Position numbers and translations under genes: made by a program. A stretch of DNA of 33,288 nucleotides from Bacteroidales bacterium (GTDB lineage: Bacteria > Bacteroidota > Bacteroidia > Bacteroidales > F082): the NCBI GenBank assembly GCA_017549805.1, contig JAFYNJ010000020.1, positions 1 through 33,288 of the forward strand, read 5' to 3'. The notes beneath the pieces were generated by a model that was not told the origin of the DNA, did not search any database, and saw only the letters and a program-made list of their open reading frames with translations. Below are positions 358 through 32,652 of this stretch, piece after piece (within the stretch, counting starts at the first letter, position 1; every line of letters begins with the position of its first letter).

Positions 358-386
358 CTGTCTTCTGTCTTCCGACTTCTGACTAC
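358..386 (+). repeat. Heptamer array, CTGTCTT/CTGACTT family
   Basis: Four consecutive 7-bp units (CTGTCTT twice, then CCGACTT and CTGACTA) fill the space between the terminator hairpin and the stop codon of the YegP-like gene. This is the same family as the arrays at 4284 and 31733, but in opposite orientation relative to the adjacent gene. Confidence 0.75.
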
Positions 387-722
387 TTATTCAGCAGTCA
401 TGTCAACAACAGGTGCATCAGGAGCGTTCTTCTGGACAGAAGCAACACCATTGAGCATGTTCTTTTCGTTGACATACATCTGGCTGGAACCAATGATCTG
501 ACCATTGGAAGCCTTCAGGTTAAAGAATGGCTTGCCGTTGGAAGCCACCTTCTTGTCGAAACGAGCCTCTGTCTTGCAGTTCTTTCTCACGGATTCAATG
601 CCGTTCATGCAAGCGCTTTTGGTAGTGTAGCCTTCGCTGGTGAGGATCACCTGACCATTGGTGGCTTTCAGATTGAATTGGAATTCACCGTTCTTTCTAA
701 GTGTAATGACAAATTTACCCAT
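387..722 (-). CDS. YegP/DUF1508 family protein, two repeats
   Basis: This 111-residue protein is two copies of the roughly 50-residue DUF1508 (YegP, UPF0339) unit. The signature FNLKATNGQ is at residues 16-24 and FNLKASNGQ at 67-75, each preceded by a short beta stretch and followed by a helix with NGIxSV or NGVxSV. YegP-type proteins are small, soluble and widespread, and their biochemical role is not established. The C-terminal 12 residues (PDAPVVDMTAE region) lie outside the repeats. It has its own consensus promoter at 779-809 and a terminator at 324-357, so it is probably monocistronic even though the efflux cluster lies just upstream. There is no signal peptide, so it should be cytoplasmic. 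Confidence 0.9.
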   Translation of the reverse strand: MGKFVITLRKNGEFQFNLKATNGQVILTSEGYTTKSACMNGIESVRKNCKTEARFDKKVASNGKPFFNLKASNGQIIGSSQMYVNEKNMLNGVASVQKNAPDAPVVDMTAE

Positions 723-778
723 TTCTTTTCTTGTTTAAGTGTTTATAGTTGAATTGATTAAATGTTGTTTTAATGATG

Positions 779-809
779 CAAATATAATCAATTATTGAAT
801 AAACAACAA
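779..809 (-). promoter_or_regulatory. Promoter of the YegP-like gene
   Basis: The minus strand has TTG, 20 bp, then TATATTTG (box 779-786), an exact -7 match. It lies in the 91-bp gap after the PII-like gene and about 57 bp before the ATG. Confidence 0.75.
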
Positions 810-813
810 AAAA

Positions 814-1107
814 TCAAATCATTTTTTCAATCTGCCACACAAAAGCCCTGAGACCCAATTCCGGTGCCTTCGCATCGCGTTCATGCAATTCACGCAAAAT
901 GCCATCCACCTGATCATCCTCCACCATCGAGACGATGGCGTTGTTCAAGGTAGGCCAAGCATGACTACCCAGATGCGGTTCACCCGTATCGCTACCATGA
1001 CCCTTGATTTCATTCCATTCGGTATAGCCCTTCACACCGTTGTTGTTCAATACCAAGGCGATGTCGTCGTAATAAGCCTGGTTGTATGTGATCAATATCG
1101 CTTTCAT
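814..1107 (-). CDS. PII-like, PG0541-type transporter-associated protein
   Basis: This 97-residue protein has the size and secondary-structure order of PII-like ferredoxin-fold proteins: a beta strand at residues 1-8 (MKAILITY), a helix, then a loop (about 30-52, rich in G, H and E) where PII proteins carry the T-loop, and a second beta-alpha-beta half. It resembles the Bacteroidota PG0541 family, found beside RND efflux genes. Here it directly follows the pump gene, with 35 bp between them filled by a heptamer array, and is the last gene of the efflux operon. A role in sensing or regulating the pump is inferred from context. No ligand has been assigned from sequence. Confidence 0.75.
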   Translation of the reverse strand: MKAILITYNQAYYDDIALVLNNNGVKGYTEWNEIKGHGSDTGEPHLGSHAWPTLNNAIVSMVEDDQVDGILRELHERDAKAPELGLRAFVWQIEKMI

Positions 1108-1111
1108 TGCA

Positions 1112-1146
1112 AACTCTAAACTCTAAACTTTAAACTCAAAACTCAT
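1112..1146 (+). repeat. Heptamer array, AACTCTA (TTTAGAG) family
   Basis: Five units of exactly 7 bp (AACTCTA, then variants AACTTTA, AACTCAA, AACTCAT) span the gap between the pump and PII-like genes. The stop codon of the pump gene (1143-1145) lies in the last unit. The same unit recurs at 17134 and 27310. Confidence 0.85.
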
Positions 1147-4277: not shown

Positions 4278-4283
4278 TGTTAT

Positions 4284-4318
4284 AGAAGTTAGAAGTCAGA
4301 AGACAGAAGTCAGAAGTC
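4284..4318 (+). repeat. Heptamer array, AGAAGTC family
   Basis: Five 7-bp units (AGAAGTT, AGAAGTC, AGAAGAC, AGAAGTC, AGAAGTC) fill the 39-bp gap between adaptor and pump genes. The adaptor stop codon TGA (4317-4319) is formed by the array itself. Confidence 0.88.
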
Positions 4319-5339
4319 AGTTTTTCACAGTAACGGCTACGCCATCCTTGAGTCGGGCTTGACCTTCGGTGACAATCTTGTCGCCCTCGTTGATGCCGCT
4401 GATGATCTCGTATCTGCTGCCAAGACGCTTGCCAACCTCCACCAACTGGTATTTCACGGTGTTGTCGGGTTGCAGCACATAGATGAAATGCTCACCCGAT
4501 CCCATCTGTTTCACCACTGCCACATCGGGAACCACCACATGATGGTTGGTACCGAAATTGGCCGTCACACGGGCAAACATACCGGGACGCAACCGCTGGT
4601 CGGTATTCTGGCTGATGACCTCCACCGAGAAGGTGTGTGTGGCGGCACTGATGGTGGGATAAATCAAATTTACCTTGCCCTTGAACACCTCGTTGGGGTA
4701 GGCATCCACGGTGATGTCGAACTCCATGTCTTTAGTCACTTGGGTAAACAGGCTCTCAGAGACGTTGATCAGCATCTTCACGGGCGTGATCTGCTGCACC
4801 ACGAAGATGGGTTGGGCCATGGAATACATGTCACCCTTGTCGTAGTTACGCGCCGTGACCACTCCATTGATAGGACTGCGAAGGTAAGTGTTTTCAGCCA
4901 GGTTGTAATAAGTCTTCTTGGTGATGTTCAATGAGAGTTTCGCCAGGTCATAGTCGGCTTGTGCGACGGCACCGATGTTGTAGAGCTCGGTAAGACGAGC
5001 AAGTTCGGTGGAGTCGTTGACATACTGCATTCGAGTCTTGGCAAGATTGACATCGTCCATCCTGGCGAGCAGCTGACCCTTGCGGACTTGGCTTCCCACC
5101 TCCACATTGATGCTCGAAATACGTCCTGCCGTTTGGGAAGCGATATTGTTCTCCGCAAACGGCTCGATGTTCGAGGTGAAGGTATTGGTAATGTCAACAT
5201 CCTCTGCCTGGGCGGTAACCACGCTGACCACGGGAGCGGCCATCGGAGCGGCGCCGGTTTTTTCATTCGTCTTTGATTTACAGCCTGTCAAAAGAACGGC
5301 GGCGACAAAAGCAAACAAGAAAAATCTAGTGTATTTCAT
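4317..5339 (-). CDS. RND efflux periplasmic adaptor, lipoprotein
   Basis: This 340-residue protein starts with a lipoprotein signal (hydrophobic stretch, then LLTGC with the lipid cysteine at residue 20), so it is anchored facing the periplasm. Barrel-sandwich halves flank a short helical hairpin (about residues 90-140), followed by beta-barrel and membrane-proximal domains ending in EGQARLKDGVAV, a typical HlyD/AcrA-family end. It bridges the RND pump and the outer-membrane channel. It sits 11 bp after the TolC-like gene, and its stop codon lies inside a heptamer array shared with the gap before the pump gene. Length and order are normal for an AcrA/MexA-like adaptor. Confidence 0.95.
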   Translation of the reverse strand: MKYTRFFLFAFVAAVLLTGCKSKTNEKTGAAPMAAPVVSVVTAQAEDVDITNTFTSNIEPFAENNIASQTAGRISSINVEVGSQVRKGQLLARMDDVNLAKTRMQYVNDSTELARLTELYNIGAVAQADYDLAKLSLNITKKTYYNLAENTYLRSPINGVVTARNYDKGDMYSMAQPIFVVQQITPVKMLINVSESLFTQVTKDMEFDITVDAYPNEVFKGKVNLIYPTISAATHTFSVEVISQNTDQRLRPGMFARVTANFGTNHHVVVPDVAVVKQMGSGEHFIYVLQPDNTVKYQLVEVGKRLGSRYEIISGINEGDKIVTEGQARLKDGVAVTVKN

Positions 5340-5350
5340 ATCCTGATAAT

Positions 5351-6649
5351 TTATTCTTTTCCAATCAATTCATCCAGAGATGCCTTGGCCACCATGAACT
5401 CATAGATGGCTTGGGCCTGTGTCAGTTGGGCTTGTTGCAGCGCCAGCTGCGCGTCGTTGAGTTCCACCAAAGTGGCCTTGCCCACCTCATACATCTTCGC
5501 CGATATCTCATAGCTCTTTTGGGCAATCTCCACCGTAGCATTAGCAGCCGTGTAATTCTTCACGCAAAGCGCAATCCGATCGTTGTAGTTGCGAATGGCG
5601 ATGCGGATCTGGCGTTCGGTATCTTCACGCTGCACATTGAGCATGTCCCTGTTGATCTTGCTTTGCTTGATGGCATAATGCTTCTGGAAGCCGTCAAACA
5701 CAGGAATGTTGAGACTCAAGGCGGCATTCGACGACGGGAACCAACTCAGTTGTTCGTCACCCATGGCGCTATAGTTGTAGTTAATGCTGGCGGCAAGCGT
5801 CGGCAAGTATTGTTTCTTCTGCATCCTGAGGTTGGATTCCAGCATACGGTCCTGAATGTCCAGCTGAAGCAAAGAGCTGTTGTTGCTGATGTCGTCTTCG
5901 CTGACGTATGGAGCGAGCAGCTCCTGGGTATAGTCCTTCAAGTCGCCTACGGCCTCAATATCCGTTTCAAGGTTGAGTCCCATGACGGCTTTCAACTGCC
6001 AAGTGGCCAGCAGCACCGCGTTCTCGGCGCTTGAAACATTGGGCTCGGAATTCATCACATTGACCTGAGCGCGAAGCTTCTCCACCTCCGACACCTTACC
6101 CACATTGAAACGCTGCAAGGTCTTCTCGTAGTTCGCCCGGGCATTCTCATACACCTGGGTAACCACGGCGAGCGACTCCTTGGCCAGCAACACACCATAG
6201 AAGGCCTGCTTGACCTGAGAGATCATCGACACCTTGGAAGAACGCGCCTGCTCAACGGCCAACTCCACGTCGAGGGCCGACAGTTTGAGGCTTTCCCAAA
6301 GCTGGGCATTCACCAGAGGCATGCTGGCACTGGCCGAAGTGCTGATGTTGTTATCGCGGCCCACCTTGATTTCCATCGGCTGCCCACCCATGTCCATTAC
6401 CATCACCTGCTTGAGCAGGGTGCGCTGGTAGGAACTGCTGACATTAACATTCGGATAAAGGGAGGCATAACTACCTTTTTTGGCATAGCCGCTCTTTTCG
6501 ACCGTCATGTCAGCGATCTTGATGGTGTTGCTTTCCGAAAGGGCAATCTCCAATGCCTGGTCCAAGGTAATCCTCATCGGTTCCTGGGCAAAGGAATAGC
6601 CAATAAATAAACTGAATATCAGTGAGATAATAACAATCTTCTTTCCCAT
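5351..6649 (-). CDS. TolC-family outer-membrane efflux channel
   Basis: This 432-residue protein has an N-terminal signal peptide (MGKKIVIISL..., cleavage likely after residue 21, before QEP). It then shows the two-fold OEP pattern of long amphipathic helices (for example residues 120-200 and 330-425) alternating with short beta strands such as ASINYNYS. TolC-type trimers form the exit duct of tripartite pumps. It is the first gene of the efflux operon: its promoter -7 box is at 6694-6701, and its 5' untranslated region is almost entirely the heptamer array 6654-6688. The order outer channel, adaptor, pump, PII-like protein is a coherent single operon. Confidence 0.95.
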   Translation of the reverse strand: MGKKIVIISLIFSLFIGYSFAQEPMRITLDQALEIALSESNTIKIADMTVEKSGYAKKGSYASLYPNVNVSSSYQRTLLKQVMVMDMGGQPMEIKVGRDNNISTSASASMPLVNAQLWESLKLSALDVELAVEQARSSKVSMISQVKQAFYGVLLAKESLAVVTQVYENARANYEKTLQRFNVGKVSEVEKLRAQVNVMNSEPNVSSAENAVLLATWQLKAVMGLNLETDIEAVGDLKDYTQELLAPYVSEDDISNNSSLLQLDIQDRMLESNLRMQKKQYLPTLAASINYNYSAMGDEQLSWFPSSNAALSLNIPVFDGFQKHYAIKQSKINRDMLNVQREDTERQIRIAIRNYNDRIALCVKNYTAANATVEIAQKSYEISAKMYEVGKATLVELNDAQLALQQAQLTQAQAIYEFMVAKASLDELIGKE

Positions 6650-6653
6650 GTTT

Positions 6654-6688
6654 TAGATAAAAGATAAGAGATAAAAGATAAAAGTTAA
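6654..6688 (+). repeat. Heptamer array, AAGATAA family, forming a 5' UTR
   Basis: Five 7-bp units (TAGATAA, AAGATAA, GAGATAA, AAGATAA, AAGTTAA) lie between the efflux promoter and the ATG. With the -7 box at 6694-6701, transcription should start near 6688, so nearly the whole leader of the efflux mRNA is the complement of this array. The same unit recurs between thyA and folA. Confidence 0.85.
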
Positions 6689-6693
6689 GTTTG

Positions 6694-6724
6694 CAAAGAT
6701 AGCACTATTTCTGTGACACTGGAA
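6694..6724 (-). promoter_or_regulatory. Promoter of the RND efflux operon
   Basis: TATCTTTG on the minus strand (6694-6701) is an exact -7 match. The -33 position, 19 bp upstream, reads TTCC rather than TTTG. This is the end of a direct repeat, so the promoter may be weak and subject to control. Confidence 0.65.
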
Positions 6725-6744
6725 TAGTTTAACGGAATAGTTTA
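6721..6744 (-). promoter_or_regulatory. Possible operator: 13-bp-spaced direct repeat at the efflux promoter
   Basis: The 11-bp sequence TAAACTATTCC occurs twice on the minus strand (6721-6731 and 6734-6744), 13 bp apart. The proximal copy ends exactly at the -33 position of the efflux promoter. Tandem half-sites over a -33 element are a common arrangement for a regulator, but no regulator gene is adjacent and the role is inferred. Confidence 0.4.
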
Positions 6745-6771
6745 GGCGCTTCAGCAAATAAAAAGGGCGAT

Positions 6772-9644: not shown

Positions 9645-9671
9645 AAAGTCAGTCCTTTAAATAAGAAGCCG

Positions 9672-17131: not shown

Positions 17132-17133
17132 AG

Positions 17134-17161
17134 TTTAGAGTTTAGAGTTGAGAGTTGAGAG
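17134..17161 (+). repeat. Heptamer array, TTTAGAG/TTGAGAG family
   Basis: Four 7-bp units (TTTAGAG twice, TTGAGAG twice) begin 2 bp after the ureohydrolase stop codon. They belong to the same family as the arrays at 1112 and 27310. Confidence 0.82.
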
Positions 17162-17167
17162 AGGCAA

Positions 17168-17201
17168 CAAAAAAATCGGAGATGGCGATCGCCATCTCCG
17201 A
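17168..17201 (-). terminator. Perfect palindrome with minus-strand T-run
   Basis: Bases 17176-17201 are a 26-bp perfect palindrome centred on GGCGATCGCC. On the minus strand it is followed by TTTTTTTGTTG, the form of a leftward terminator. On the plus strand it lies 45 bp after the ureohydrolase stop but has no T-run, so it is less likely to end that transcript alone. Confidence 0.6.
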
Positions 17202-17271
17202 AAGATCCCAGGTTTATTGAGGTTTGATGATTGCCTTTCGGCAACCGTTATTTCATTTAAAGAAAGGACAT

Positions 17272-17594: not shown

Positions 17595-19325
17595 ATGAAT
17601 ACCATTCTACAGATCCTTACCCTCCTCGGAGCGGTTACCCTTTTCCTATTCGGCCTCAACCTCCTCAGTAACGGCCTCCAAAAAGTGGCTGGCGACGGCA
17701 TGCGCCGCATCCTCGCCGCCATGACTTCCAACCCCTTCACGCAAATCCTGACTGGCATCGGCGTCACGGCACTCATCCAAAGCTCAACGGCTACCACGAT
17801 TATGGTGGTCAGTTTCGTGAACGCCGGTCTGCTGGAGTTAGGCCAAGCCATTGGCGTCATCATGGGTGCCAACATCGGCACCACCATCACCGCATGGATT
17901 CTAGCCGTATTCGGTTTCTCGTTCAATATGGCCGATTTTGCCTTCCCCTTACTGCTGTTTGGCTATATCTTGCTGCAAATGAAGAAAAACCAAAAGCGGC
18001 ACGACACGGGCGAAATCATCATCGGCTTCTCTCTGTTCTTCATCGGTTTTGCCACCTTACGCTCCACAGCGCAAGGTCTCCTCACCGCCGACAACCTTGG
18101 ATTCCTTGTCTCATGGTCTAATCTGGGATGGTGGTCTATCCTCATCTACATGATTATCGGTATTGTGTTGACGATATGTTTCCAATCATCGGCGGCAACA
18201 ATGGCCATCACCATGACGCTCATCACGACAGGCATATTGGACTTCAGGCTGGCAACAGCCATCATGATGGGAGGAAACATTGGAGCCACCTTCGCAGCCA
18301 ATATTGCAGCCACGGTAGGTAACGTTGCCGCAAAGCGGACGGCAATCTCTCACACCCTTATGAATACCGTCGGCGTCATCTTCGTGCTGATTATCTACCC
18401 CTGGTTCCTCCAAGCCATCGGATGGATGGTGGAGCTTTTCGGTCTTCCCAATCCCAACACCGCAGATTTGACCCTCTCCTCTGGACCCGAAGCTAATGCA
18501 GTGCAGAAATCCTTATTATATAGCGTTTGCGTGATGCACACGCTATTCAATGTGGTGATCACCTTGATTTTCGTATGGTTTGTGCCGCAATTCGTGAAAC
18601 TGCTTTGCAGGATTTTCCCCTCGAAGACCGAGGAAGAGGAATACCGCCTGCTCTACATCAGCGGCGGCCCCCTATCCACCCCCGAACTCTCTTTGGATGA
18701 AGCCAAGCAAGAGATCTGCAACTTCAGCAGGATCTGCCATAAGGGATTTGTCCACCTCAGAAACGCCATCAACGAGACCGATCCTGAGAAGATGGACAGC
18801 CGCATCGCAAAACTGGTGTATTACGAGGAGATTACCGATAAAATCGAATATGAGATTGCCAGCTATCTGAACGAGGTGTCGAAGGGCGAGATCACCAACG
18901 CGTCAGCCAAGCGCATCAAATCGATGTACAAGATCGTGGGTGAAATGGAGAGCCTCGGCGACTCCGGCGAGTCGATCAGCCGCATCCTCACCCGCGCCAG
19001 GTCACACAACAGGAAGTTCGACAAGGACATGATTCAACGGCTCAACCACATGATGGACACCATGGAAGCGGCCTACCAAGCCATGGCCGACAACCTCCAT
19101 GCACCATACCATCAACTGAAAGACATCAACAACGCCCAGAAAGCCGAATTTGAGATCAACGCCTGCCGCGACCGCCTTCGCGAAGAGCACATCAACAACA
19201 TCGAAAACCCCAACTACAACTACCAAACCGGAGTGTATTACATTGACATCGTCTCCGAGTTGGAGCGCATGGGCGACTTCATCATCAACGTTTCGGAGGC
19301 AGTGATCGAGGAAGGTGAAAACTGA
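17595..19325 (+). CDS. Na/Pi cotransporter family protein with PhoU-like domain
   Basis: This 576-residue protein belongs to the PNaS (NptA/YjbB) family. Its two inverted halves each carry the QSS signature, IQSSTATT (Gln62-Ser64) and CFQSSAAT (Gln198-Ser200), within about eight membrane segments (residues 1-345). The C-terminal 200 residues are cytoplasmic, helical and PhoU-like. The family moves phosphate with sodium; bacterial members may import or export phosphate. The gene precedes a DUF47-Pit-DUF47 set, so this locus appears devoted to phosphate. The stop codon lies inside a heptamer array. A separate -7 box follows for the next genes, so it is probably its own unit. Confidence 0.93.
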   Translation: MNTILQILTLLGAVTLFLFGLNLLSNGLQKVAGDGMRRILAAMTSNPFTQILTGIGVTALIQSSTATTIMVVSFVNAGLLELGQAIGVIMGANIGTTITAWILAVFGFSFNMADFAFPLLLFGYILLQMKKNQKRHDTGEIIIGFSLFFIGFATLRSTAQGLLTADNLGFLVSWSNLGWWSILIYMIIGIVLTICFQSSAATMAITMTLITTGILDFRLATAIMMGGNIGATFAANIAATVGNVAAKRTAISHTLMNTVGVIFVLIIYPWFLQAIGWMVELFGLPNPNTADLTLSSGPEANAVQKSLLYSVCVMHTLFNVVITLIFVWFVPQFVKLLCRIFPSKTEEEEYRLLYISGGPLSTPELSLDEAKQEICNFSRICHKGFVHLRNAINETDPEKMDSRIAKLVYYEEITDKIEYEIASYLNEVSKGEITNASAKRIKSMYKIVGEMESLGDSGESISRILTRARSHNRKFDKDMIQRLNHMMDTMEAAYQAMADNLHAPYHQLKDINNAQKAEFEINACRDRLREEHINNIENPNYNYQTGVYYIDIVSELERMGDFIINVSEAVIEEGEN

Positions 19326-19344
19326 AAACTGAAAACTTAAAAAT
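19317..19344 (+). repeat. Heptamer array, GAAAACT family
   Basis: Three exact GAAAACT units and one TAAAAAT variant. The array begins inside the symporter gene and supplies its stop codon TGA (19323-19325). Confidence 0.75.
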
Positions 19345-19357
19345 GAAATAAAAATAG

Positions 19358-21768: not shown

Positions 21769-21771
21769 ATC

Positions 21772-22965
21772 ATGAGAAGAATCATCAACAGCTTATTAGA
21801 CAACGACCTTTACACATTCAGCGTGTGCTATGCCTATTTGCAGAAGTTCCCACGCGCCATGGGTCAATATACCTTTGTCGATCGCAACAACACGGTCTAT
21901 CCGAAAGGCTTCGCCGAGAAGCTGCGCGAACAGTTCGACAGCTTTGCCGACCTCCGCATCACCAGTGAAGAAGCGCGTTTCATGAAACAGAAGTGCTATT
22001 ACTTTCCGTTGTGGTTCTTCACCTTCCTGAAAGGCTTCCATCTGAGACCTTCCGAAGTCGAGGTGAGCCAAGACGAGGAAGGCCATCTCCACATCACTGT
22101 CACGGGCCTGCTGTGGCGCACCGTATTCTGGGAAATGCCTATCCTGGCTACCGTTTCGGAGCTTTCGCATGAGCTGAAAGGCGAGTTTGAGCACTATGAC
22201 CCCGAGAAGGAATACAAAAAGTCGTACGACAAAGGCATCCGTTTGATTGGCAATGGCGTGAAGTTTAGCGACTTCGGCACCCGACGCCGTTTCTCGTTTG
22301 AGCATCAGGACCTGGTGATCCGCTCGTTCATTGAGGCGCAGAAACAGTTCACCAAGACTTGCTTCGTAGGTACTTCAAACGTGTTGTTGGCCATGAAGTA
22401 CAACCTCACCCCCATCGGCACCATGAGTCACCAGTTCATCGAGACCTGCTCATTATATGGCTACAACGAGGCCAACTACCTCGCCATGGATTATTGGCAG
22501 GAGGTATATGCAGGCAGCTTGGGCGTGTTCCTCTACGACACCTACACCCGCAAGGCCTTCTTCCAAAACTTCACCACACTGCACGCCAAACTGTTCGACG
22601 GTCTGCGTGTCGATAGCGGCGACAACATCGAGGCTTTGGAGGAGATCATCCTGAAATACAAGGAGCTCGGCATCGACCCAGCTCAGAAGTCCATCATCTT
22701 CAGCAACGGCTTGAATGTAGATGAGGCCATCGCCATCCATGAAGCCGTGGCAGGCCGCATGCAGGACTCCTTCGGCATTGGCACCCACCTCACCTGCGAC
22801 ATCGACAACGTGAAGGCCATGAACATCGTGGTGAAGCTCACCGCCGCCAAGATCACTGAGAAACGTACTTGGAAGAAGGTGGTCAAGCTCTCCGACGACC
22901 ACGGCAAATACACCGGCGATCCCGAGGAGATCGAAATCTGCAAGAAGACGCTGGAGATCAGTTGA
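21772..22965 (+). CDS. pncB: Nicotinate phosphoribosyltransferase
   Basis: This 397-residue PncB makes nicotinate mononucleotide from nicotinate and PRPP with ATP hydrolysis, in the Preiss-Handler route to NAD. Family features seen are NDLYTFS near the N terminus, FSDFGTRRR, FVGTSNVLLA, GTMSHQFIE (the region of the regulatory His phosphorylated in Salmonella PncB) and RVDSGDNIE for the phosphoribosyl site. Length matches E. coli PncB (400). It starts 3 bp after the second DUF47 gene, so it is in the phosphate-transport operon, an uncommon partner whose reaction releases pyrophosphate and phosphate. The gene ends convergently with topB, and its stop lies in an octamer array. Confidence 0.95.
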   Translation: MRRIINSLLDNDLYTFSVCYAYLQKFPRAMGQYTFVDRNNTVYPKGFAEKLREQFDSFADLRITSEEARFMKQKCYYFPLWFFTFLKGFHLRPSEVEVSQDEEGHLHITVTGLLWRTVFWEMPILATVSELSHELKGEFEHYDPEKEYKKSYDKGIRLIGNGVKFSDFGTRRRFSFEHQDLVIRSFIEAQKQFTKTCFVGTSNVLLAMKYNLTPIGTMSHQFIETCSLYGYNEANYLAMDYWQEVYAGSLGVFLYDTYTRKAFFQNFTTLHAKLFDGLRVDSGDNIEALEEIILKYKELGIDPAQKSIIFSNGLNVDEAIAIHEAVAGRMQDSFGIGTHLTCDIDNVKAMNIVVKLTAAKITEKRTWKKVVKLSDDHGKYTGDPEEIEICKKTLEIS

Positions 22966-22996
22966 TCAGTTGTTCAGTTATTCAGTTTGCAGTTAG
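22959..22996 (+). repeat. Octamer/heptamer array, CAGTTGAT family, between convergent genes
   Basis: Three 8-bp units (CAGTTGAT, CAGTTGTT, CAGTTATT) pass into two 7-bp units (CAGTTTG, CAGTTAG). The array contains both stop codons: pncB TGA at 22963-22965 and topB TAA (complement, 22993-22995). Confidence 0.75.
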
Positions 22997-25044: not shown

Positions 25045-27302
25045 GACTTTATCAAGACTTCCGCTTTGGATTTTTGAGCGACAAACCACACATAGTCGTG
25101 AGGCTTGAAGGTAATGCGTGCTGAAGGATTCAGGATGAAAGTGCCGTCACGCTCAATGGCAATCACCATGGCCTCATAGTGGTCAGCCAGACCAGAATCC
25201 ATCAGGGTAATACCCACAAAGGGACTACTCTCAGGCACTTCTACCTTATAGAGATCGACTTCGCTTTCTTCGTGCTCCCGAATCAACTGTTCATCAAAAG
25301 CCTCCACCTTGCCCAACAACAGCCGCAGATGGTCCTCATGCCCAACGAAGGTGATTTTGTCGTAGGGAAACAGTTGGAAATCCGACTTGGGAAGCTCATA
25401 TATTTGCTTGCCACGTTCCACGCTAACCACACTCACATTGTAATTGTCACGGAAATCCGTCTCCTTGATCAATTTGCCTGAATAATCGCTGTCAGGACTG
25501 AGGGTCATCTTCTGCAAATGACAGTTCTCTTGTAAGATTTCCGGAATGGCAAACACCTGCGACGACTGCCGTTTGTTGAGGTTATCAGTAAAACGCGCTT
25601 CAATGCGTTTGTGGAACCGCATGGCAGGACTCAGCACCCTAAGCATCACGGTATAAACCAAGGCCATGCCAATATTGAACAGGCGAAAATATGGTGCTCC
25701 AACACCCAGTTTCGACCAGAAATCCGCATTGAAATAATGCCGCAACACAGAAGTGGACACTACCCATACGATGATAAACCGCAGAATAAAAATGGATAGA
25801 ATCAAGGTCTTGTTGAATCGGCTGTTTTCCATCAGCTTCTGTGTGGTTTTCACAAGGGTATGCCTGAATCCGATAGCCCATAGGAAAGGCGACACCAGCA
25901 CCAGCGTAACAGCCGCACTGATGGCGTTACCCCAAATATTCGGCACATAATCCATAATGACGGAGCCACCCCAGAAGCAGAGGAACAACACGGCAATGAC
26001 TATGGCCACATAGATGATGATATGCTTGAACTGACGGCCCAAGAAGCTTGCCATACTTACCTTTTGTCCACTCTTTACCTTAATGCCGCTATCCTTGTTT
26101 TCGAAATGGCTCAACCATTGATGCGGAATGCGACCACTCACCCACTTGTATGTAGGAAGAGCTGCCTTGATGGCATACGGCGTGAGAAAAGTAGTAATGA
26201 TGGAAACCGAAACGATGATGGGATACAGGAACTCATCAATGACCCCATAGCTAAGTCCCAAGGTTGCGATAATAAACGAGAACTCACCAATCTGGCTGAA
26301 ACAGAAACCGCCTTGAATGGCCTGTTTCAAACCCAAACCGGCAATCAGGCGTCCAGCCACATTGCTCAAAGGCTTAAAGATGAGCAACACGATCGTGATC
26401 ACCAAAATCTGCCACCAATAGTTGACCAGGATTTGAGGATCCACCATCATACCCACAGAAACAAAGAAGACTGCTCCAAACAGGTTCTTGATAGGCGTGG
26501 TGAGCTTATGAATCATTTCAGCTTCCAGGGTCTCTGCCAAAATGGAACCCATGATGAAAGCGCCTAAGGCCGAAGAAAAACCAGCGAGGTTGGCCAGCAC
26601 GACCATCAAGAAACAAAGACCCACAGAAAAGACCGTCAACGTCTCTTCCGACATGAATTTCCTTGCCCAGCGCAAGATCGTAGGGACCAAAAAGATGCCG
26701 CCGATGAACCAGATAAGCAAGAAGAAGCCTAATTTGAGCATGCTGTAAAGCAACTGCATTCCGTCAAAGGTCTTACTCACCGCCAAGGTGGAGAGGATGA
26801 CCATGAGCAACACCGCTTCCAAGTCTTCCACCACCAATTCACCAATGACATTGCCGCTGAACTTCTCACGATACAGCTTCATGTCCTCAAAAGCCTTGGC
26901 GATAATGGTAGTGGATGAAATCGAGAGCATGGCACCAAGGAAGATGCAGTCCATTTGCGACCAACCCAAGAGTTTACCCAACAGGAAACCCACCAGGCAC
27001 ATCGTCACCAATTCGGTAAGGGCTGTAATGCCCACCGTCCCTCCTACTTTCTTCAGTTTCTTGAAACTGAATTCCAAGCCAATGCCAAAGAGCATGAACA
27101 CCATACCGATCTCACTCCAGGTCTCAACGCTGGTGTGGTCGTTGATGACCGGAAACCACTCGAAATTGGGACCAATCAAAAAGCCGGCGATGATGTAACC
27201 CAGGACAACAGGCTGTTTCAACCATTTGAAGATAATGGTCGTGATGCCGGCTGTAACCAGAATCAAGGCGAGATCGGAGAATAGTGCAGGAAGGGATTCC
27301 AT
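25041..27302 (-). CDS. KefB-type cation:proton antiporter with two TrkA-C domains
   Basis: This 753-residue CPA2 antiporter has about twelve membrane segments in residues 1-400, including GFLIGPN, the LFGIGLEFS motif and the SSTTIIAKAF region. A second hydrophobic block of about four segments (around 430-570) is an extra part not found in E. coli KefB. It ends in two TrkA-C-like domains (about 600-660 and 685-748, for example YDKITFVGHEDHL and PHDYVWFVAQKSK), which usually bind ligand to gate the channel. It lacks the full nucleotide-binding TrkA-N Rossmann domain of KefB/KefC. It probably exchanges K+ or Na+ for H+. It lies downstream of the membrane pyrophosphatase, and its stop overlaps the topB start by 4 bp. 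Confidence 0.92.
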   Translation of the reverse strand: MESLPALFSDLALILVTAGITTIIFKWLKQPVVLGYIIAGFLIGPNFEWFPVINDHTSVETWSEIGMVFMLFGIGLEFSFKKLKKVGGTVGITALTELVTMCLVGFLLGKLLGWSQMDCIFLGAMLSISSTTIIAKAFEDMKLYREKFSGNVIGELVVEDLEAVLLMVILSTLAVSKTFDGMQLLYSMLKLGFFLLIWFIGGIFLVPTILRWARKFMSEETLTVFSVGLCFLMVVLANLAGFSSALGAFIMGSILAETLEAEMIHKLTTPIKNLFGAVFFVSVGMMVDPQILVNYWWQILVITIVLLIFKPLSNVAGRLIAGLGLKQAIQGGFCFSQIGEFSFIIATLGLSYGVIDEFLYPIIVSVSIITTFLTPYAIKAALPTYKWVSGRIPHQWLSHFENKDSGIKVKSGQKVSMASFLGRQFKHIIIYVAIVIAVLFLCFWGGSVIMDYVPNIWGNAISAAVTLVLVSPFLWAIGFRHTLVKTTQKLMENSRFNKTLILSIFILRFIIVWVVSTSVLRHYFNADFWSKLGVGAPYFRLFNIGMALVYTVMLRVLSPAMRFHKRIEARFTDNLNKRQSSQVFAIPEILQENCHLQKMTLSPDSDYSGKLIKETDFRDNYNVSVVSVERGKQIYELPKSDFQLFPYDKITFVGHEDHLRLLLGKVEAFDEQLIREHEESEVDLYKVEVPESSPFVGITLMDSGLADHYEAMVIAIERDGTFILNPSARITFKPHDYVWFVAQKSKAEVLIKS

Positions 27303-27309
27303 TATTTAG

Positions 27310-27393
27310 TTGAGAGTTTAAAGTTTAGAGTTTAGAGTTGAAAAATGAGAGGTGAAAGGAAAAAACCTCTCACCTCTCATCTCTCACCTCTCA
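27310..27393 (+). repeat. Compound heptamer array, TTTAGAG then CTCTCAC families
   Basis: Twelve consecutive 7-bp units keep phase without a break. TTGAGAG, TTTAAAG and TTTAGAG units come first, then ATGAGAG and GTGAAAG, then after an A-run CCTCTCA and TCTCTCA units. The two halves are inverted relative to each other, so the array folds into the terminator hairpin at 27341-27380. It fills the gap between the pyrophosphatase and antiporter genes. Confidence 0.85.
27341..27380 (-). terminator. Terminator hairpin of the pyrophosphatase gene, made of heptamers
   Basis: Arms 27345-27359 and 27366-27380 pair over 15 bp with one G-U. The loop is six A on the plus strand (six T in the RNA orientation), followed on the minus strand by TTTT. 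It lies 19 bp after the stop of the pyrophosphatase and before the antiporter gene, so it may reduce read-through. Confidence 0.7.
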
Positions 27394-27398
27394 ATTAA

Positions 27399-29645
27399 TT
27401 ACAGCAGGTGGCAAGTGACGGTCAGACCGGCCATCACGATGGAGACCATGCTCATCAGCTTGATGAGGATGTTCAGTGAAGGACCTGACGTGTCTTTGAA
27501 CGGGTCGCCGACGGTGTCACCCACGACGGTGGCTTTATGGTTGTCAGAGCCCTTGCCGCCGAAGTTGCCTTCCTCAACATACTTCTTGGCATTGTCCCAA
27601 GCACCGCCCGAGTTGGCCATGAACACAGCCAGCACGAAACCAGTGGCCAGGCCGCCGATCAACAGACCGAGAACACCCGGAACACCGAGAATCAAACCTG
27701 TGAGAATCGGGACCAGAATGGCGAGGATGGAAGGCACCAGCATTTCATGCTGGGCACCCTTGGTGGAGATGGCCACGCAGCGCTCATAATCGGGTTCAGC
27801 ATGACCCTCAAGAATACCCTTGATGGTGCTGAACTGACGGCGCACCTCTTCAACCATCTTCTGGGCAGCACGCCCCACAGCATTCATGGTCATGCCACAG
27901 AATACGAAGGCCATCATGGCGCCAATGAAGATACCCACCAGAACAACGGGGTTCATCAAGTTGACTTGGTAGAACTCCATGAAGTCGATCAAGGAAGCTT
28001 GGGCAGTGTCGACCACTCTTTCGCCAATCTCCAAGGTAGCTTCACCCACGCGGACCAAAGCGATCTTGATTTCCTCTACATAGGAAGCCAGCAGGGCGAG
28101 GGCTGTCAGAGCAGCAGAACCGATGGCGAAACCTTTACCGGTGGCAGCGGTGGTGTTGCCGAGAGCATCGAGGGCATCGGTGCGCTTGCGAACCTCTGGA
28201 TCGAGGCCGCTCATTTCGGCGTTACCGCCAGCGTTGTCGGCGATGGGACCGTAAGCGTCGGTAGCCAGGGTAATACCCAATGTGGAGAGCATACCCACAG
28301 CAGCGATACCGATACCGTAAAGACCTCTGGAGAGGTTGACGGCGGTAAATTCAATGTTGAAGCCGTTGGCGCAGAGATAAGCGAGCACAATAGCAAAGCC
28401 CACGGTGATCACCGGGATGGCGGTGGAAAGCATACCCAGACCCAAACCGGAGATGATCACGGTTGCAGGACCCGTCTTGGAACTCTCAGCCACCTTTTGG
28501 GTGGGCTTGTAACTTTGTGAAGTGTAGTATTCAGTAGCCTTTCCGATAATCACGCCAGCCAGCAGACCGACCACCACGGAAAGTGAGGTTTGCCACCACA
28601 TGTTGGCATATTCGCCCGTTTCTTTTCCAAAGAGGAAGTACATGATGCCGAAAGTAGCGGCAGCGATCAAGAAAGCAGCGGTGTTGGTACCGCGGCTCAG
28701 AGCGCCCAGCAACTGTTTCATGCCGGCGTCTTCCTTTGTGCGGACCAAGAAAATACCAATTAATGAAAGGAGCACACCTGCAGCGGCAATCAGCATAGGA
28801 GCAAACACGGCTTTCAGCTGCATTTCAGCACCGGCGGCACTTTGTGTGGCGGCAGTGGCGAAAGCAGAAGCGCCCAAGGCCATGGTAGCCAGGATGGATC
28901 CTGCGTAGGACTCATAAAGGTCGGCACCCATACCGGCCACGTCACCGACGTTGTCACCGACGTTATCGGCAATGGTAGCGGGGTTGCGCGGATCATCCTC
29001 CGGGATGTTGTATTCGGTCTTACCCACGAGGTCGGCACCCACGTCAGCGGCCTTGGTGTAGATACCGCCACCCACACGGGCGAACAAAGCCTGTGTAGAA
29101 GCACCCATACCGAAGGTCAACATGGTGGTGGTGATGGTCACCAAGTCAGCCTGTGCACCCACCATCTCGAGAAGTCTGGTGCCTTTCAACACCAAGAACC
29201 ACACCGAAACGTCGAGCAGGGCGAGACCCACCACGACGAGACCCATCACAGCGCCCGAACGGAAAGCGACCTTCAAGCCGCTGTTCAGCGAGCGACGGGC
29301 GGCGTTAGCCGTACGTGCTGAAGCATAGGTGGCAGTCTTCATGCCGAAGAATCCAGCCAAACCCGAGAAGAAACCACCCGTGAGGAACGCGAACCAAACG
29401 ATGGCGTTCTGCAGGTCGAATCGACTCATAACAAAGAAAACGATCGCCAACACGATAAAGACGATGATAACCACCTTGTACTGCTGTTTCAGGTAGGCCA
29501 TGGCGCCTTTACGGACGTGAGCGGCAATCTTCTTCATCAGATCGGTGCCTTCATCTTCTTTCATCATCGATTTGTAGAAGAAGAAAGCGAATGCCAGTGC
29601 CAAAATAGAGGCACCCAGCACCCAATAAACGATTGAAAGACTCAT
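27399..29645 (-). CDS. hppA: Membrane pyrophosphatase, K+-dependent type
   Basis: This 748-residue membrane protein of about 16 segments couples pyrophosphate hydrolysis to Na+ and/or H+ export. The catalytic motif DVGADLVGKTE (residues 201-211) and the acidic loops TIADNVGDNVGDVAGMGAD and DNAGGNAEMS are present. At the potassium site the protein reads GNTTAATGKG with Ala500 and Gly503, not the Lys and Thr of K+-independent enzymes, so it should need K+. K+-dependent types include Na+ pumps and dual Na+/H+ pumps, the latter known from Bacteroides. Which one this is cannot be settled here. It has a full consensus promoter and is followed by a cation:proton antiporter, which fits Na+/H+ balance. 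Confidence 0.95.
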   Translation of the reverse strand: MSLSIVYWVLGASILALAFAFFFYKSMMKEDEGTDLMKKIAAHVRKGAMAYLKQQYKVVIIVFIVLAIVFFVMSRFDLQNAIVWFAFLTGGFFSGLAGFFGMKTATYASARTANAARRSLNSGLKVAFRSGAVMGLVVVGLALLDVSVWFLVLKGTRLLEMVGAQADLVTITTTMLTFGMGASTQALFARVGGGIYTKAADVGADLVGKTEYNIPEDDPRNPATIADNVGDNVGDVAGMGADLYESYAGSILATMALGASAFATAATQSAAGAEMQLKAVFAPMLIAAAGVLLSLIGIFLVRTKEDAGMKQLLGALSRGTNTAAFLIAAATFGIMYFLFGKETGEYANMWWQTSLSVVVGLLAGVIIGKATEYYTSQSYKPTQKVAESSKTGPATVIISGLGLGMLSTAIPVITVGFAIVLAYLCANGFNIEFTAVNLSRGLYGIGIAAVGMLSTLGITLATDAYGPIADNAGGNAEMSGLDPEVRKRTDALDALGNTTAATGKGFAIGSAALTALALLASYVEEIKIALVRVGEATLEIGERVVDTAQASLIDFMEFYQVNLMNPVVLVGIFIGAMMAFVFCGMTMNAVGRAAQKMVEEVRRQFSTIKGILEGHAEPDYERCVAISTKGAQHEMLVPSILAILVPILTGLILGVPGVLGLLIGGLATGFVLAVFMANSGGAWDNAKKYVEEGNFGGKGSDNHKATVVGDTVGDPFKDTSGPSLNILIKLMSMVSIVMAGLTVTCHLL

Positions 29646-29686
29646 AGATTTGTTATTTAAGATTAATTTGTTTCACAAAGAATCAA

Positions 29687-29717
29687 CAAAAGTAGGAACA
29701 AATCAAAAGAATTCAAA
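29687..29717 (-). promoter_or_regulatory. Promoter of the membrane pyrophosphatase gene
   Basis: The minus strand has TTTG (29714-29717), 19 bp, then TACTTTTG (29687-29694), a full consensus promoter. The leader is about 35 nt. Confidence 0.8.
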
Positions 29718-29754
29718 GACAATTTTTAAAAAAAACACCCCTCGGCGATTTTTC

Positions 29755-29785
29755 TTGTTGATGTCAGGAATTATTCCTATTTTTG
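29755..29785 (+). promoter_or_regulatory. Promoter of the bifunctional nuclease gene
   Basis: TTG (29755-29757), 20 bp, then TATTTTTG (29778-29785), a full consensus match. The start site near 29790 excludes the open-frame ATG at 29783 and supports the ATG at 29831. Confidence 0.78.
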
Positions 29786-29830
29786 GCATTTGAAGTGGGA
29801 AAGGTTTTTTCCTCACCCATTGCTTTGAAA

Positions 29831-30409
29831 ATGAACAAGATTACATTAGAAATTAAAGAGCTGCTATTCAGCCAATCGTCCAGTGGAGCATACGTGCTGA
29901 TTCTTGGCGACAAACATTCCATGAGGCGTCTGCCCATCGTCATCGGCAGTGCCGAGGCACAATCCATCGCGTTGGGACTGGAAGGCAACCAACCCTCCCG
30001 TCCCCTCACCCACGACCTTTTCAAGAAGTTTGCCTTGAATTATGGAGTGGACCTGATGGAAGTGGTCATCACACGCTTTCTGGAAGGAGTATTCTATGCC
30101 ATGCTCGTTTGCAAGCAAGGTGACGACATCAACATGATCGATGCACGACCTTCCGATGCCATCGCTTTGGCGGTACGATTCAACTGCCCTATTTCCGCAT
30201 ACGAAAACGTTATGAACGAAGCCGGCATCGAGATGGATGAACTCAAGGACTTGGAACCGCAACCCGAACCCGAGGAACCAATAGAGACTTCCGACAGTCT
30301 CGAAGACCTGAGCGTTGAACAGCTACAAAAGCTGCTCCAGCTGGCCATCGACGAAGAAAACTACGAAAAAGCCGCTGAGCTCCGCGATTTGATTAATAGT
30401 AAATCTTGA
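29831..30409 (+). CDS. Bifunctional nuclease (BFN/DUF151) family protein with UVR motif
   Basis: This 192-residue soluble protein has a DUF151 domain in residues 1-130, with landmarks YVLILGDKHSMRRLPIVIG, EAQSIAL, TRFLEGVFYAML and DARPSDAIALAVR. An acidic proline-rich linker follows, then a UVR-type helical hairpin (LSVEQLQKLLQLAIDEENYE, then KAAELRDLI) like that in UvrB and UvrC. DUF151 members include a plant bifunctional nuclease, and bacterial roles are poorly defined. The UVR motif suggests contact with a partner. It is first in the run leading to the nucleoside symporter, thyA and folA, with heptamer arrays in each gap. Confidence 0.9.
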   Translation: MNKITLEIKELLFSQSSSGAYVLILGDKHSMRRLPIVIGSAEAQSIALGLEGNQPSRPLTHDLFKKFALNYGVDLMEVVITRFLEGVFYAMLVCKQGDDINMIDARPSDAIALAVRFNCPISAYENVMNEAGIEMDELKDLEPQPEPEEPIETSDSLEDLSVEQLQKLLQLAIDEENYEKAAELRDLINSKS

Positions 30410-30412
30410 TTT

Positions 30413-30447
30413 ATTCTTACTTCTAACTTCTGAATTCTAAATTCTAA
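30413..30447 (+). repeat. Heptamer array, CTTCTAA/ATTCTAA family
   Basis: Five 7-bp units (ATTCTTA, CTTCTAA, CTTCTGA, then ATTCTAA twice) occupy the 42-bp gap between the nuclease and nucleoside symporter genes, ending 4 bp before the ATG. No -7 box is present. Confidence 0.82.
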
Positions 30448-30451
30448 AATA

Positions 30452-31732
30452 ATGAAAGGTATCAAATTCAGACTCATCGTGATGAACTTCCTGATCTTTG
30501 CGGTTTGGGGAGCTTATCTCTGCTCGTTGGGCATCTACCTGGGCCGTATCGGCATGGGTGCCCATATCGGAAAGTTTTTCGCCATCCAAGGCATCGTCTC
30601 TCTGTTCATGCCCACCCTCATCGGCATCATTGCCGACCGCTGGGTGCCTGCACAGAAGATGTTAGGCATCTGCCATTTCCTGGCCGCCATCTTCATGGCA
30701 TTGGCAGGCTACATGGGTTACAAATATGGCAACGATGTCACCTTTGGCCAAATCTTCCCATACTATGCCATTAGCGTGGCGTTTTTCATGCCGACTATCG
30801 CCTTGGGCAACTCCGTGTCATACAACGCTTTGACCCAAGCAGGCCTCGATACGGTGAAGGCCTTCCCGCCCATCCGTGTGTTCGGCACCATTGGCTTCAT
30901 CCTCTCCATGTGGATTGTTAACTTCACTGGTTTCAAGGACAACTACATGCAGCTGTTCGTCTCCGCCGCATGGGGCATCATCCTTGGCTTCTATGCTTTC
31001 ACGTTGCCGAACTGCCCCGTCAACAAAACCGCCAAAGGCTCGTCGTTTGTGGATACCTTCGGCCTGCGGGCCTTCTCCCTGTTCAAGGACGGCAAGATGT
31101 GCGTTTTCTTCATCTTCTCCTTCCTTTTGGGCATGTGCTTGCAGGTGACCAACGGCTTCGCAACCCCATTCCTCGATGCCTTCGGCGCCGATCCCCAATA
31201 TGCCAATGCCTTTGCGGTGAAGAACAATGTGTTCCTCTCCTCGATTTCGCAGGTTTCGGAGACCTTATGCATTCTGTTGATCCCCTTCTTCCTGAAGAAA
31301 TTCGGCATCAAGAAGGTGATGCTCATCGCCTTTATCGCCTGGGCGTTACGCTTCTTCTTCTTAGGAGCAGGCAACCCCACCGGATTTGGCTTGGTGCTGT
31401 TGATCCTCTCCATGATCGTTTATGGCGTGGCTTTCGACTTCTTCAACATCAGCGGCTCGCTTTTCGTTGAACAGAACACCGACGAAAGCATCCGATCCAG
31501 CGCTCAGGGTGTATTCATGATGATGACCAACGGCCTTGGTGCCACCATCGGCTCGTTGTGCGCACAAGCTGTCGTAAACCGCTTCGTGTTCCATCCAGCC
31601 GCCGCCGACCCGAGCTTCAATGTCATGGGCGGTTGGTCCATGGCGTGGTATGTGTTCGCAGCCTTTGCGCTGGTGGTAGGCATCCTGTTCGCCATCCTGT
31701 TCAAATACAAACACACTCCAGAAAAAGCCTAA
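30452..31732 (+). CDS. Nucleoside:H+ symporter family MFS transporter (NupG-like)
   Basis: This 426-residue protein has twelve hydrophobic segments in two six-helix halves, with the MFS motif between TM2 and TM3 ([14 protein letters not shown]). Its closest recognised family is the nucleoside:H+ symporter group (NupG, XapB), from landmarks such as the N-terminal [17 protein letters not shown] and the late [20 protein letters not shown]. It should import nucleosides with protons. It lies directly before thyA (25 bp) and folA, so salvage of thymidine or deoxyuridine and de novo dTMP synthesis may be linked. Length matches E. coli NupG (418). Confidence 0.9.
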
Positions 31733-31757
31733 TTCTGACTTCTGTCTTCTGACTTCT
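31733..31757 (+). repeat. Heptamer array, TTCTGAC family, exactly filling a gap
   Basis: TTCTGAC, TTCTGTC and TTCTGAC, plus TTCT running into the thyA ATG, take up all 25 bases between the symporter stop and the thyA start. The family is the same as at 4284, in the same orientation relative to transcription. Confidence 0.85.
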
Positions 31758-32585
31758 ATGAAACAATACCTCGACCTGCTCCAGCACATCCTCGACCACG
31801 GTGTACAAAAGGGCGACCGCACGGGCACGGGCACTATCAGCGTGTTCGGCTACCAGATGCGGTTCGACCTCTCCGAAGGATTTCCTTTGGTGACCACCAA
31901 GAAGGTCCATCTGAAGTCCATCATCTACGAGCTATTATGGTTGTTGCGTGGTGACACCAACATCCAGTATTTGCAGGACCACAAGGTCAGCATCTGGGAT
32001 GAGTGGGCCGACGCTAACGGCGACTTGGGTCCTGTGTACGGCGCCCAATGGCGCAACTGGAATGGCGAGGGCATCGACCAGATTGCCGAGGTGGTGAAAA
32101 GCATCAAGGAGAACCCTAACAGCCGCCGCCACATCGTGACGGCGTGGAATCCCAGCGTTTTGCCGGATGAACATGAGAAAGACTTTGCCGCTAATGTCGC
32201 TGCCGGAAAAGCCGCTTTACCTCCGTGCCATGCGTTTTTCCAATTCTATGTGGCCAACGGCAAGCTCTCCTGCCAGCTTTACCAACGCAGCGCCGACGTG
32301 TTCCTGGGTGTGCCGTTCAACATCGCCTCCTACGCCCTTCTTACCATGATGATGGCACAGGTGTGCGGCTTGCAGCCTGGCGAATTCGTCCACACCTTCG
32401 GCGACGTGCACATCTACAATAACCTCATCGAACAAGTGAAGCTGCAACTTTCGAGAACACCCCGCCCGTTGCCAACGATGAGAATCAATCCAGAAGTAAA
32501 AGATATTTTTGAGTTTAAATACGAAGACTTCAAACTGGAAAACTACGATCCATGGCCGCCGATTAAAGGAGAAGTATCGGTTTAG
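31758..32585 (+). CDS. thyA: Thymidylate synthase
   Basis: This 275-residue ThyA methylates dUMP to dTMP using methylene-tetrahydrofolate, yielding dihydrofolate. The catalytic Cys157 lies in [10 protein letters not shown]. Other landmarks are DRTGTGT (residues 20-26), [25 protein letters not shown] and [19 protein letters not shown]. Compared with E. coli ThyA (264), an 11-residue insertion sits just before the catalytic Cys (around 137-152, [16 protein letters not shown]). It is followed by folA after a 71-bp gap holding the longest AAGATAA array. FolA regenerates the tetrahydrofolate that ThyA consumes, so the pair is functional. No separate promoter is seen. Confidence 0.97.
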
Positions 32586-32652
32586 ATAAGAGATAAAAGA
32601 TAAAAGATAAAAGTTAAAAGATAAAAGTTAAAAGATAAAAGTTAAAAATAAT
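32583..32652 (+). repeat. Heptamer array, AAGATAA/AAGTTAA family, ten units
   Basis: Ten 7-bp units run from the thyA stop codon (TAG, 32583-32585, in the first unit) to the folA ATG region. The second half alternates AAGATAA with AAGTTAA, a higher-order 14-bp period. It is the same family as at 6654, with opposite orientation relative to transcription. Confidence 0.88.

Follow-up and report, generated by a model that had tools for sequence, protein, structure and literature searches.

Strand-polarised heptamer repeats of Bacteroidia suggest a hitherto unrecognised addition of repeats to DNA ends

What fills the gaps between ordinary genes in a stretch of Bacteroidales DNA, and why with tandem repeats of almost a single period? 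The stretch is contig JAFYNJ010000020.1 of assembly GCA_017549805.1 (GTDB family F082), 33,288 nucleotides in length and hereafter called the window; within its assembly, which comprises 33 contigs and 2,730,596 bases, it is contig C21 (contigs, loci and genomes are given below as C, L and G numbers). An initial annotation, made from the sequence alone, had listed eleven sites in the window at which gaps are filled by degenerate tandem arrays of 7-bp, once 8-bp, units. We find that such arrays occur across the genome, that their G-rich strand points away from the flanking gene, and that neighbouring arrays mostly stand in inverted, G-then-C order. This arrangement suggests that DNA ends are extended with repeats by a process not recognised so far.

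Tandem Repeats Finder recovered an array at all eleven of the listed sites. Ten are of period 7, with starts at 356, 1111, 4284, 6655, 17132, 19316, 27308/27315, 30413, 31733 and 32584, and the sole period-8 array starts at 22956, as had been claimed; an extra (twelfth) array of period 7 lies at 27365-27393 and shares its gap with the 27308 array. For the wider analysis the window was combined with 745,989 further bases of the same genome into a 779-kb sample, genes were called with a simple codon-usage finder, and tandem arrays were scored at each period from 2 to 24. In the 427 gaps of at least 15 bp, period 7 accounted for 51 arrays and period 8 for 10; the others fell solely at periods 14, 15, 16, 21 and 24, with zero at the remaining periods, and ten dinucleotide shuffles gave no array of any period. 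Called coding sequences held 25 period-7 arrays and one to three each at periods 6, 9, 12 and 18. Gap arrays are thus specific to periods 7 and 8 and sums of these, and the signal is spread across the 779-kb sample, not peculiar to the window. The arrays belong with the long simple sequence repeats of heptameric type, whose units of about 7 nt recur in tandem over runs longer than expected by chance. At 48 loci of relatives within the genus, period 7 again came first (59 arrays), followed by periods 8 (17), 12 (9), 9 (5), 10 (4), 11 (3) and 6 (1). As a separate observation, exact 26-nt heptamer arrays were present in 18 and 27 stretches of viral contigs, counts in which phage DNA and flanking host DNA are not distinguished.

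The arrays are polar with respect to the flanking gene. Each was labelled by whichever of G and C is more frequent, a label picked on these data after G068 and the period-8 arrays. In the genome of the window, 35 of 38 one-sided arrays have their G-rich strand directed away from the gene (2 inward, 1 tie): 14 of 14 at gene starts and 21 of 24 at stops, where the two inward cases and the tie lie. Pooled over five data sets, 102 of 112 arrays point outward, 7 inward and 3 are ties, starts and stops alike, although these are not all independent events because orthologous loci were not removed. The outward counts per set were 35/38 for the own genome, 43/47 for the genus (48 loci, L061-L088 and L207-L226; L094-L098 left out), 10/10 for G174 (stretches picked near listed pattern matches), 7/9 for G068 and 7/8 for five Bacteroidaceae-type loci; G198, with a single array that points outward by purines, was left out of the count. 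G174 belongs to another family of the order and G068 to another family of the class, so the rule holds in the former and mostly in the latter. Gap ends of the own genome that carry no array show only a weak outward bias (181 outward, 96 inward and 25 ties at starts; 105, 81 and 20 at stops). Other labels did less well: the purine strand gave 33 outward arrays against 35 by G in the own genome and 31 against 43 in the genus, and an A-versus-T label gave 73/112 over the pooled sets. The purine strand was rejected as the polar property, working at period 7 and failing at period 8. In the mRNA, leader arrays are C-rich and trailer arrays G-rich, and at both ends of the gene the G-rich strand extends outward from the flank in the 5' to 3' direction, as at a telomere.

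The same geometry appears where two arrays lie together. Among 51 pairs of neighbouring arrays (at most 60 bp apart, distinct by their ends), 36 were G-then-C, against 2 C-then-G, 7 GG and 1 CC, and 5 included a tie. Some pairs lie within genes, where their order cannot be dictated by a role as leader or trailer, and some have short loops separating the arms. The arms resemble each other, with an arm-to-arm match over all loci of 14.7 against 7.3 for arms re-dealt (maximum 10.2), an excess for which a shared species vocabulary may account, as taken up below. Telomere repeats on two joined DNA ends would give such outward arrays and such G-then-C pairs. In G068 a direct head-to-head join was seen at L260:17486-17625, between about 80 bp of GTTTCGA units and about 60 bp of ACCCGAA/ACCCAAA units.

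We tentatively favour the reading that the arrays are products of a DNA-level process and not conserved signals, namely of repeat addition or slippage at 3' ends by a presumed enzyme, retained where tolerated. At a free 3' DNA end, left by a break or gap, a polymerase would append G- or purine-rich units in steps of 7, sometimes 8, nt, copying each unit with errors from the preceding one. The extended end would then be joined to the other side, or would fold back and copy itself. Extension of both ends, or fold-back of one, would yield the order flank, G-array, optional spacer, C-array, flank; otherwise a single outward-pointing array would result. Such insertions would survive where they are tolerated, in 5' leaders, 3' trailers and variable protein loops. 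The period, the grammar, the closeness to genes, the presence in genes of essential type, the turnover between species, the serial similarity of units and the strand polarity are observed, whereas the free end, its fold-back, the joining step and the enzyme are inferred. Extension of 3' ends with joining or fold-back would account together for the period, the seriality of units, the single outward arrays and the head-to-head pairs. A broader form of this proposal, which we regard as unlikely, is that many Bacteroidia carry out a telomere-like reaction on circular chromosomes, healing broken 3' ends with G-rich 7- or 8-nt repeats and fusing them head to head, and that the polarised scars have, in the course of evolution, rebuilt leaders, trailers and protein loops, those of essential enzymes included.

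The twelve arrays of the window are as follows, the strand being that of the G-rich strand.

356..384, minus: array of TTCTGTC/TTCTGAC, period 7, adjoining the 3' end of the gene at 387-722 (minus) and pointing outward
1111..1145, minus: array of AAACTCT (AGAGTTT on the minus strand), period 7, occupying a 35-bp gap with a minus-strand gene on either side
4283..4320, plus: array of AGAAGTC, period 7, occupying the gap between an RND pump gene and its membrane-fusion partner
6655..6688, plus: array of AGATAAA, period 7, 5 bp from the start of an outer-membrane efflux gene (5351-6649, minus)
17132..17161, plus: array of AGTTTAG/AGTTGAG, period 7, immediately past the stop of an arginase-family gene
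19316..19348, plus (strand taken from purines, G being about equal to C): array of TGAAAAC, period 7, overlapping the stop of a Na/Pi cotransporter gene
22956..22987, plus: array of GATCAGTT, period 8, in the gap of two convergent genes
27308..27339, plus: array of AGTTGAG/AGTTTAG, period 7, adjoining the start of the gene at 25041-27302 (minus); left arm of a G-then-C pair
27365..27393, minus: array of ACCTCTC, period 7, adjoining the 3' end of a pyrophosphatase gene (27399-29645, minus); right arm of the pair with 27308..27339
30413..30448, minus: array of TTCTTAC/ATTCTAA, period 7, occupying a gap with a plus-strand gene on either side
31733..31757, minus: array of TTCTGAC, period 7, making up the entire 25-bp gap from the stop of a nucleoside symporter gene to the ATG of thymidylate synthase
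32584..32651, plus: array of AGATAAA, period 7, about nine units, in the gap between thymidylate synthase and DHFR

The genes themselves are ordinary, comprising an RND pump operon, an ABC protein, phosphate transporters, a topoisomerase, a pyrophosphatase, thymidylate synthase and DHFR. The 38 named loci with the nucleoside symporter come from Bacteroidales or Bacteroidia metagenome assemblies, many of them labelled rumen, reticulum, deer, yak or horse. A promoter-type box, TANNTTTG, starts 13 nt ahead of the 6655..6688 array in the mRNA sense, and a perfect hairpin (CGGAGATGGCGATCGCCATCTCCG) lies at 17160-17210, just past the 17132 array.

The units had been described as unrelated, with only period and location in common, a description that does not survive. 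Within the window the family GTCAGAA/TTCTGAC is shared by the sites at 356, 4284 and 31733, AGTTKAG by those at 1111, 17132 and 27308, and AGATAAA by those at 6655 and 32584. In the genome sample, 104 period-7 arrays (116 with period 8; threshold 12), read on the purine-rich strand, contain 389 units that amount to only 63 distinct heptamers, so that the arrays share a grammar as well as their polarity relative to the flanking gene. The units largely fit A-R-A-R-N-T-N, with A at position 1 in 96% and at position 3 in 94%, purines at positions 2 and 4 and T at position 6 in 80%; these are upper figures because each array was rotated to the phase that best fits the pattern. On the purine-rich strand, a TGA or TAA spans the junction between units in the commonest of them. 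Neighbouring units vary mainly at positions 2, 5, 6 and 7 and seldom at 1, 3 and 4. Across the 54 arrays of four or more units, neighbours differed by a mean of 1.00 base, a value below the lowest of 500 permutations (1.03), and the difference grew with distance. Neighbouring units are thus more alike than distant ones, which indicates that units are copied serially from one another. Copying from a master template, as judged by unit order, was rejected, since the direction of unlike neighbours was unbiased (72/110 in the majority direction against a null mean of 72.9); copying of whole arrays was likewise set aside, with a weak excess only. An identical 30-nt imperfect AGATAAA array was nevertheless seen at four unrelated loci of the genome (C8:27466, C9:216183, C14:16206 and window 6655), and it recurs in two relatives (L141 and L174).

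A four-fold pattern of the grammar matches 76 of 149 genomes of the class and 54 of 100 genera. The own genome has 195 matches against 17 for a reversed control, and 59 of the 60 genomes of the genus match, with counts from 0 to 224 of overlapping matches. In many other genomes the reversed control equals or exceeds the pattern (63 against 75 in G174 and 11 against 156 in G068, the nature of every reversed-control match not being established), so the grammar as such is a feature of the lineage.

Plain replication slippage is the simplest alternative: random short seeds would expand because about 7 nt contact the polymerase, and would decay neutrally thereafter. Among long units, heptamers reportedly form the largest class in most of the genomes surveyed by Mrazek et al. 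(2007), who are credited with the view that about 7 nt is the stretch interacting with the polymerase (as summarised in PMC4679880). Slippage would explain the specificity of period, the serial similarity of units and the shift in copy number by whole units between thymidylate synthase and DHFR (about 9, 5 and 3 in the window, L062 and L061). It does not predict the strand polarity and the G-then-C pairs, the 63-heptamer vocabulary with its phase-fitted A at positions 1 and 3, or the focus of variation on positions 2, 5, 6 and 7. Because of the polarity result in particular, we consider slippage an incomplete account, and improbable as the whole explanation.

The placement of the arrays bears on a second alternative. 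At a slightly lower threshold (13), the 779 kb contain 104 arrays of period 7 or 8, of which 33 fill short gaps with a gene no more than 15 nt away on either side, 24 adjoin a stop only and 14 a start only; 27 lie inside called coding sequences, 5 farther from genes, and 1 is unplaced. That the arrays are intergenic is therefore correct for the window and incorrect for the genome sample. In gaps of at least 20 bp, 70 array centres lie within 50 nt of a gene (2.34 per kb) and 3 beyond (0.07 per kb), which supports some role of transcription or selection. The box TANNTTTG is the Bacteroidota promoter box; it occurs within 80 nt upstream of 9 of the 14 start-side arrays, compared with 190 of 1328 intergenic windows of any kind, and the start-side arrays are therefore probably mRNA leaders. 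Fifteen arrays lie inside coding sequences of at least 900 nt. Of four array-bearing genes compared with profiles, three were confirmed as IleS (IleRS), MurE and SufS, with scores above curated cut-offs, and the fourth is biotin-carboxylase-like, with a score below them. The arrays in these genes translate to heptapeptide repeats such as NSQLSTL and LEVRGEK.

At the same locus the unit families turn over between species; the initial annotation had proposed to look for such turnover between strains. Between thymidylate synthase and DHFR, the AGATAAA units of the window and of its close relatives L062 and L061 give way to CGGAGAA in L065, GACAGAA in L069, TGCGGAA followed by an 8-mer in L081, and 8-mers in L070, L074 and L095; L063 and L064 have other sequence with no clear array, and in L066, L067, L072 and L087 the genes touch and the gap is absent. 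Units and length also differ at the pyrophosphatase gap (five relatives with adjacent genes) and at the topoisomerase gap (three). For IleRS and MurE we compared 30 listed loci of the 60 genus genomes for each gene, and the same loops of these proteins hold a G-rich array, a C-rich array, a G-C pair or a short array-free loop, depending on the genome. By eye, REP-like (repetitive extragenic palindromic) palindromes stand in frame at the array-bearing IleRS loop in L143, L149, L151, L154 and L156, and codons adjacent to an array sometimes deviate from array-free relatives toward the unit (AAACTGA in L146 against AAGTTGA in L148 and L155).

By the second alternative the arrays are functional mRNA elements under selection, C-rich, G-poor and unstructured 5' leaders that promote initiation independent of a Shine-Dalgarno sequence, and G-rich 3' trailers carrying stops in all three frames; it is modelled on the role proposed for TAACTGA repeats in Beggiatoaceae. 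Gene-hugging, the promoter box upstream of 9 of the 14 start-side arrays, the C-rich leaders and G-rich trailers, and the TGA or TAA that spans the unit boundary on the purine-rich strand are all as expected for such elements. Selection of this kind would not explain arrays within IleRS, MurE, SufS and the biotin-carboxylase-like gene, the unit and even the presence of an array differ between close species, and in the window no link to gene function is apparent. We judge it unlikely that mRNA function accounts for the arrays.

Several observations weigh against the reading we favour, that of arrays laid down by 3'-end extension. The polarity count includes the non-independent loci mentioned above, and array-free starts of the own genome already lean outward (65% of non-ties); with the purine label the pooled figures weaken to 86 outward, 22 inward and 4 ties of 112. 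The match between arms is not significant within the own genome alone (9 pairs; 12.1 against 10.2 expected, maximum 16.1 in 200 re-deals), which is why a shared species vocabulary may account for the excess over all loci. Sharing of imperfect 24-mers is somewhat commoner than under unit permutation, with 52 arrays (null mean 37, maximum 50) and 51 array pairs (null mean 34, maximum 57), a hint of copying between loci. The roughly 30-fold excess in density within 50 nt of genes is unexplained by neutral end-joining alone, and a single period-7 array was seen in 20 stretches drawn from eight genomes that belong to other families of the order. No enzyme that adds repeats was identified: four pattern-rich genomes of the genus have no match to the profile of the one candidate considered, the UG26-class reverse transcriptase described below (G010, 224 pattern matches, 84% complete; G035, 116, 90%; G038, 109, 99%; G052, 54, 79%). 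Ku went undetected in all 21 genomes searched, and Ku-dependent joining was accordingly rejected.

A third alternative, which we hold to be quite unlikely, is a palindromic mobile element akin to REP and BIME (bacterial interspersed mosaic element) sequences and moved in trans by a Y1 transposase, with heptamer arrays as its arms and single arrays as decayed copies. The inverted G-C pairs with their occasional short loops, the REP-like palindromes seen by eye at the same IleRS loop in other species, and the identical 30-nt AGATAAA array at four loci would fit such an element, and Y1_Tnp matches are present in 17 of 21 genomes, the own genome included. No conserved end sequence was seen, however, and there are many unit families and array lengths; target duplications were not recognised by eye in the aligned loops, no systematic test being made. 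The one Y1 (RAYT-like) transposase gene found in the genome (C7:7876; L137:7876-8700) is followed by three similar palindromic REP-type units and so borders other palindromes, with no heptamer array in the approximately 1.1 kb shown.

The remaining alternative invokes a reverse transcriptase. The genome encodes one of the UG26 class on C20 (L202:1120-3018; 550 bits to RT_UG26 against 93 bits to RT_UG17), and a second, partial match on C26 is unclassified. With matches above 500 bits, UG26 is present in 16 of the 60 genomes of the genus, among them 6 of the 11 with more than 50 pattern matches; it was rejected as the maker of the arrays on account of the several pattern-rich genomes that have no UG26. 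G057 has UG26 and zero pattern matches, yet heptamer arrays built from other units are present in its IleRS gene (L150); the pattern captures a single grammar and zero matches do not mean absence of arrays, so G057 provides no test of the enzyme. Upstream of the UG26 gene are about 130 nt that look structured, and a gene for a protein of 178 aa. Templated addition to chromosomal ends by a reverse transcriptase with a short RNA template, similar to DRT10 or telomerase, would fit the telomere-like polarity and has precedent in bacterial enzymes that make short tandem repeats (DRT10; PMC12632851), but we consider it very unlikely, as the enzyme is of class UG26 and not UG17/DRT10, G010, G035, G038 and G052 are pattern-rich without it, about ten unit families would require many templates, and no heptamer template was seen by eye in the approximately 130 nt upstream, where no systematic search was made.

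If the polarity is read correctly, bacteria without linear chromosomes would possess a repair or synthesis activity that adds repeats in the same geometry as telomere healing, a finding directly relevant to the connection reported between telomerase and antiviral reverse transcriptases. Such an activity would further be a so far neglected origin of new untranslated regions and of in-frame insertions, NSQLSTL or LEVRGEK for example, into conserved proteins in one of the major phyla of the gut. On the plainer readings too, the old preference of bacterial repeats for seven bases becomes a testable, strand-resolved rule.

How do the arrays compare with known systems? Heptameric repeats are known in cyanobacteria as STRR (short tandemly repeated repetitive) sequences, and a heptamer of Xanthomonas and Nostoc reportedly forms quadruplexes. 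In titles and the openings of abstracts, which largely leave subscription papers outside their scope, we recognised no report on the polarity, grammar or coding invasion of heptamers in Bacteroidota, and for long simple sequence repeats in general neither a polarity with respect to the neighbouring gene nor inverted pairing of arrays is known to have been reported. The initial annotation had put the arrays forward as a candidate for an undescribed system; in kind they are not unknown: by the account given in PMC4679880, heptamer repeats including TAACTGA, sometimes with other heptamers mixed in, occur in Beggiatoaceae, cyanobacteria and five Bacteroidetes, and translational or rearrangement roles have been proposed for them (MacGregor 2015). 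As described there, the TAACTGA repeats resemble ours in being direct repeats of a heptamer, with many sets per genome, mostly intergenic and near start codons, and in strain differences that are mostly 7-nt steps; that study followed one unit, and related heptamers are rarely or never repeated in the BOGUAY genome, where the repeats lie mostly a few nt upstream of start codons. Here, by comparison, many units share one grammar, the G-rich strand points outward at both ends, G-C pairs are inverted, arrays are common in coding sequences of essential type, and 24 of the 104 arrays adjoin a stop only against 14 a start only. No rotation of TAACTGA is among the 45 commonest of the 63 units, and the heptamer is met only singly, inside AACTGA-type arrays of relatives such as L080 and L095.

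DRT10 is likewise a bacterial enzyme that produces short tandem-repeat DNA, with 9-nt repeats in the best studied case, and its authors link it to telomerase; it is of class UG17 and acts with a SLATT protein and a non-coding RNA (PMC12632851). The reverse transcriptase on C20 belongs to UG26, not UG17, and is dispensable for many pattern matches. REP and BIME sequences are also short, dispersed, often palindromic and gene-adjacent, and they share the IleRS insertion place with the arrays; they are defined by a conserved palindrome and a cognate transposase (RAYT) flanked by copies, whereas the arrays comprise 63 unit types with a tandem period of 7 or 8 and no conserved sequence.

Two further arrays have telomere-like units, a 102-bp array at L260:12524-12625 of G068 with TTTAGGG, TTTTGGG and TTTCGGG, and a short array, CCCTAAACCCTAAACTCTAAACT, at C9:193991-194013 of the own genome, whose unit we take to be the plant-type telomere heptamer. 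Compared with telomeres, the arrays described here are interstitial, mostly of 3-10 copies and of many unit families, with no linear ends shown and no telomerase found; they resemble telomere repeats and their fusion points in the G-rich strand that runs outward 5' to 3', in the head-to-head G-then-C joins and in units of 6-8 nt.

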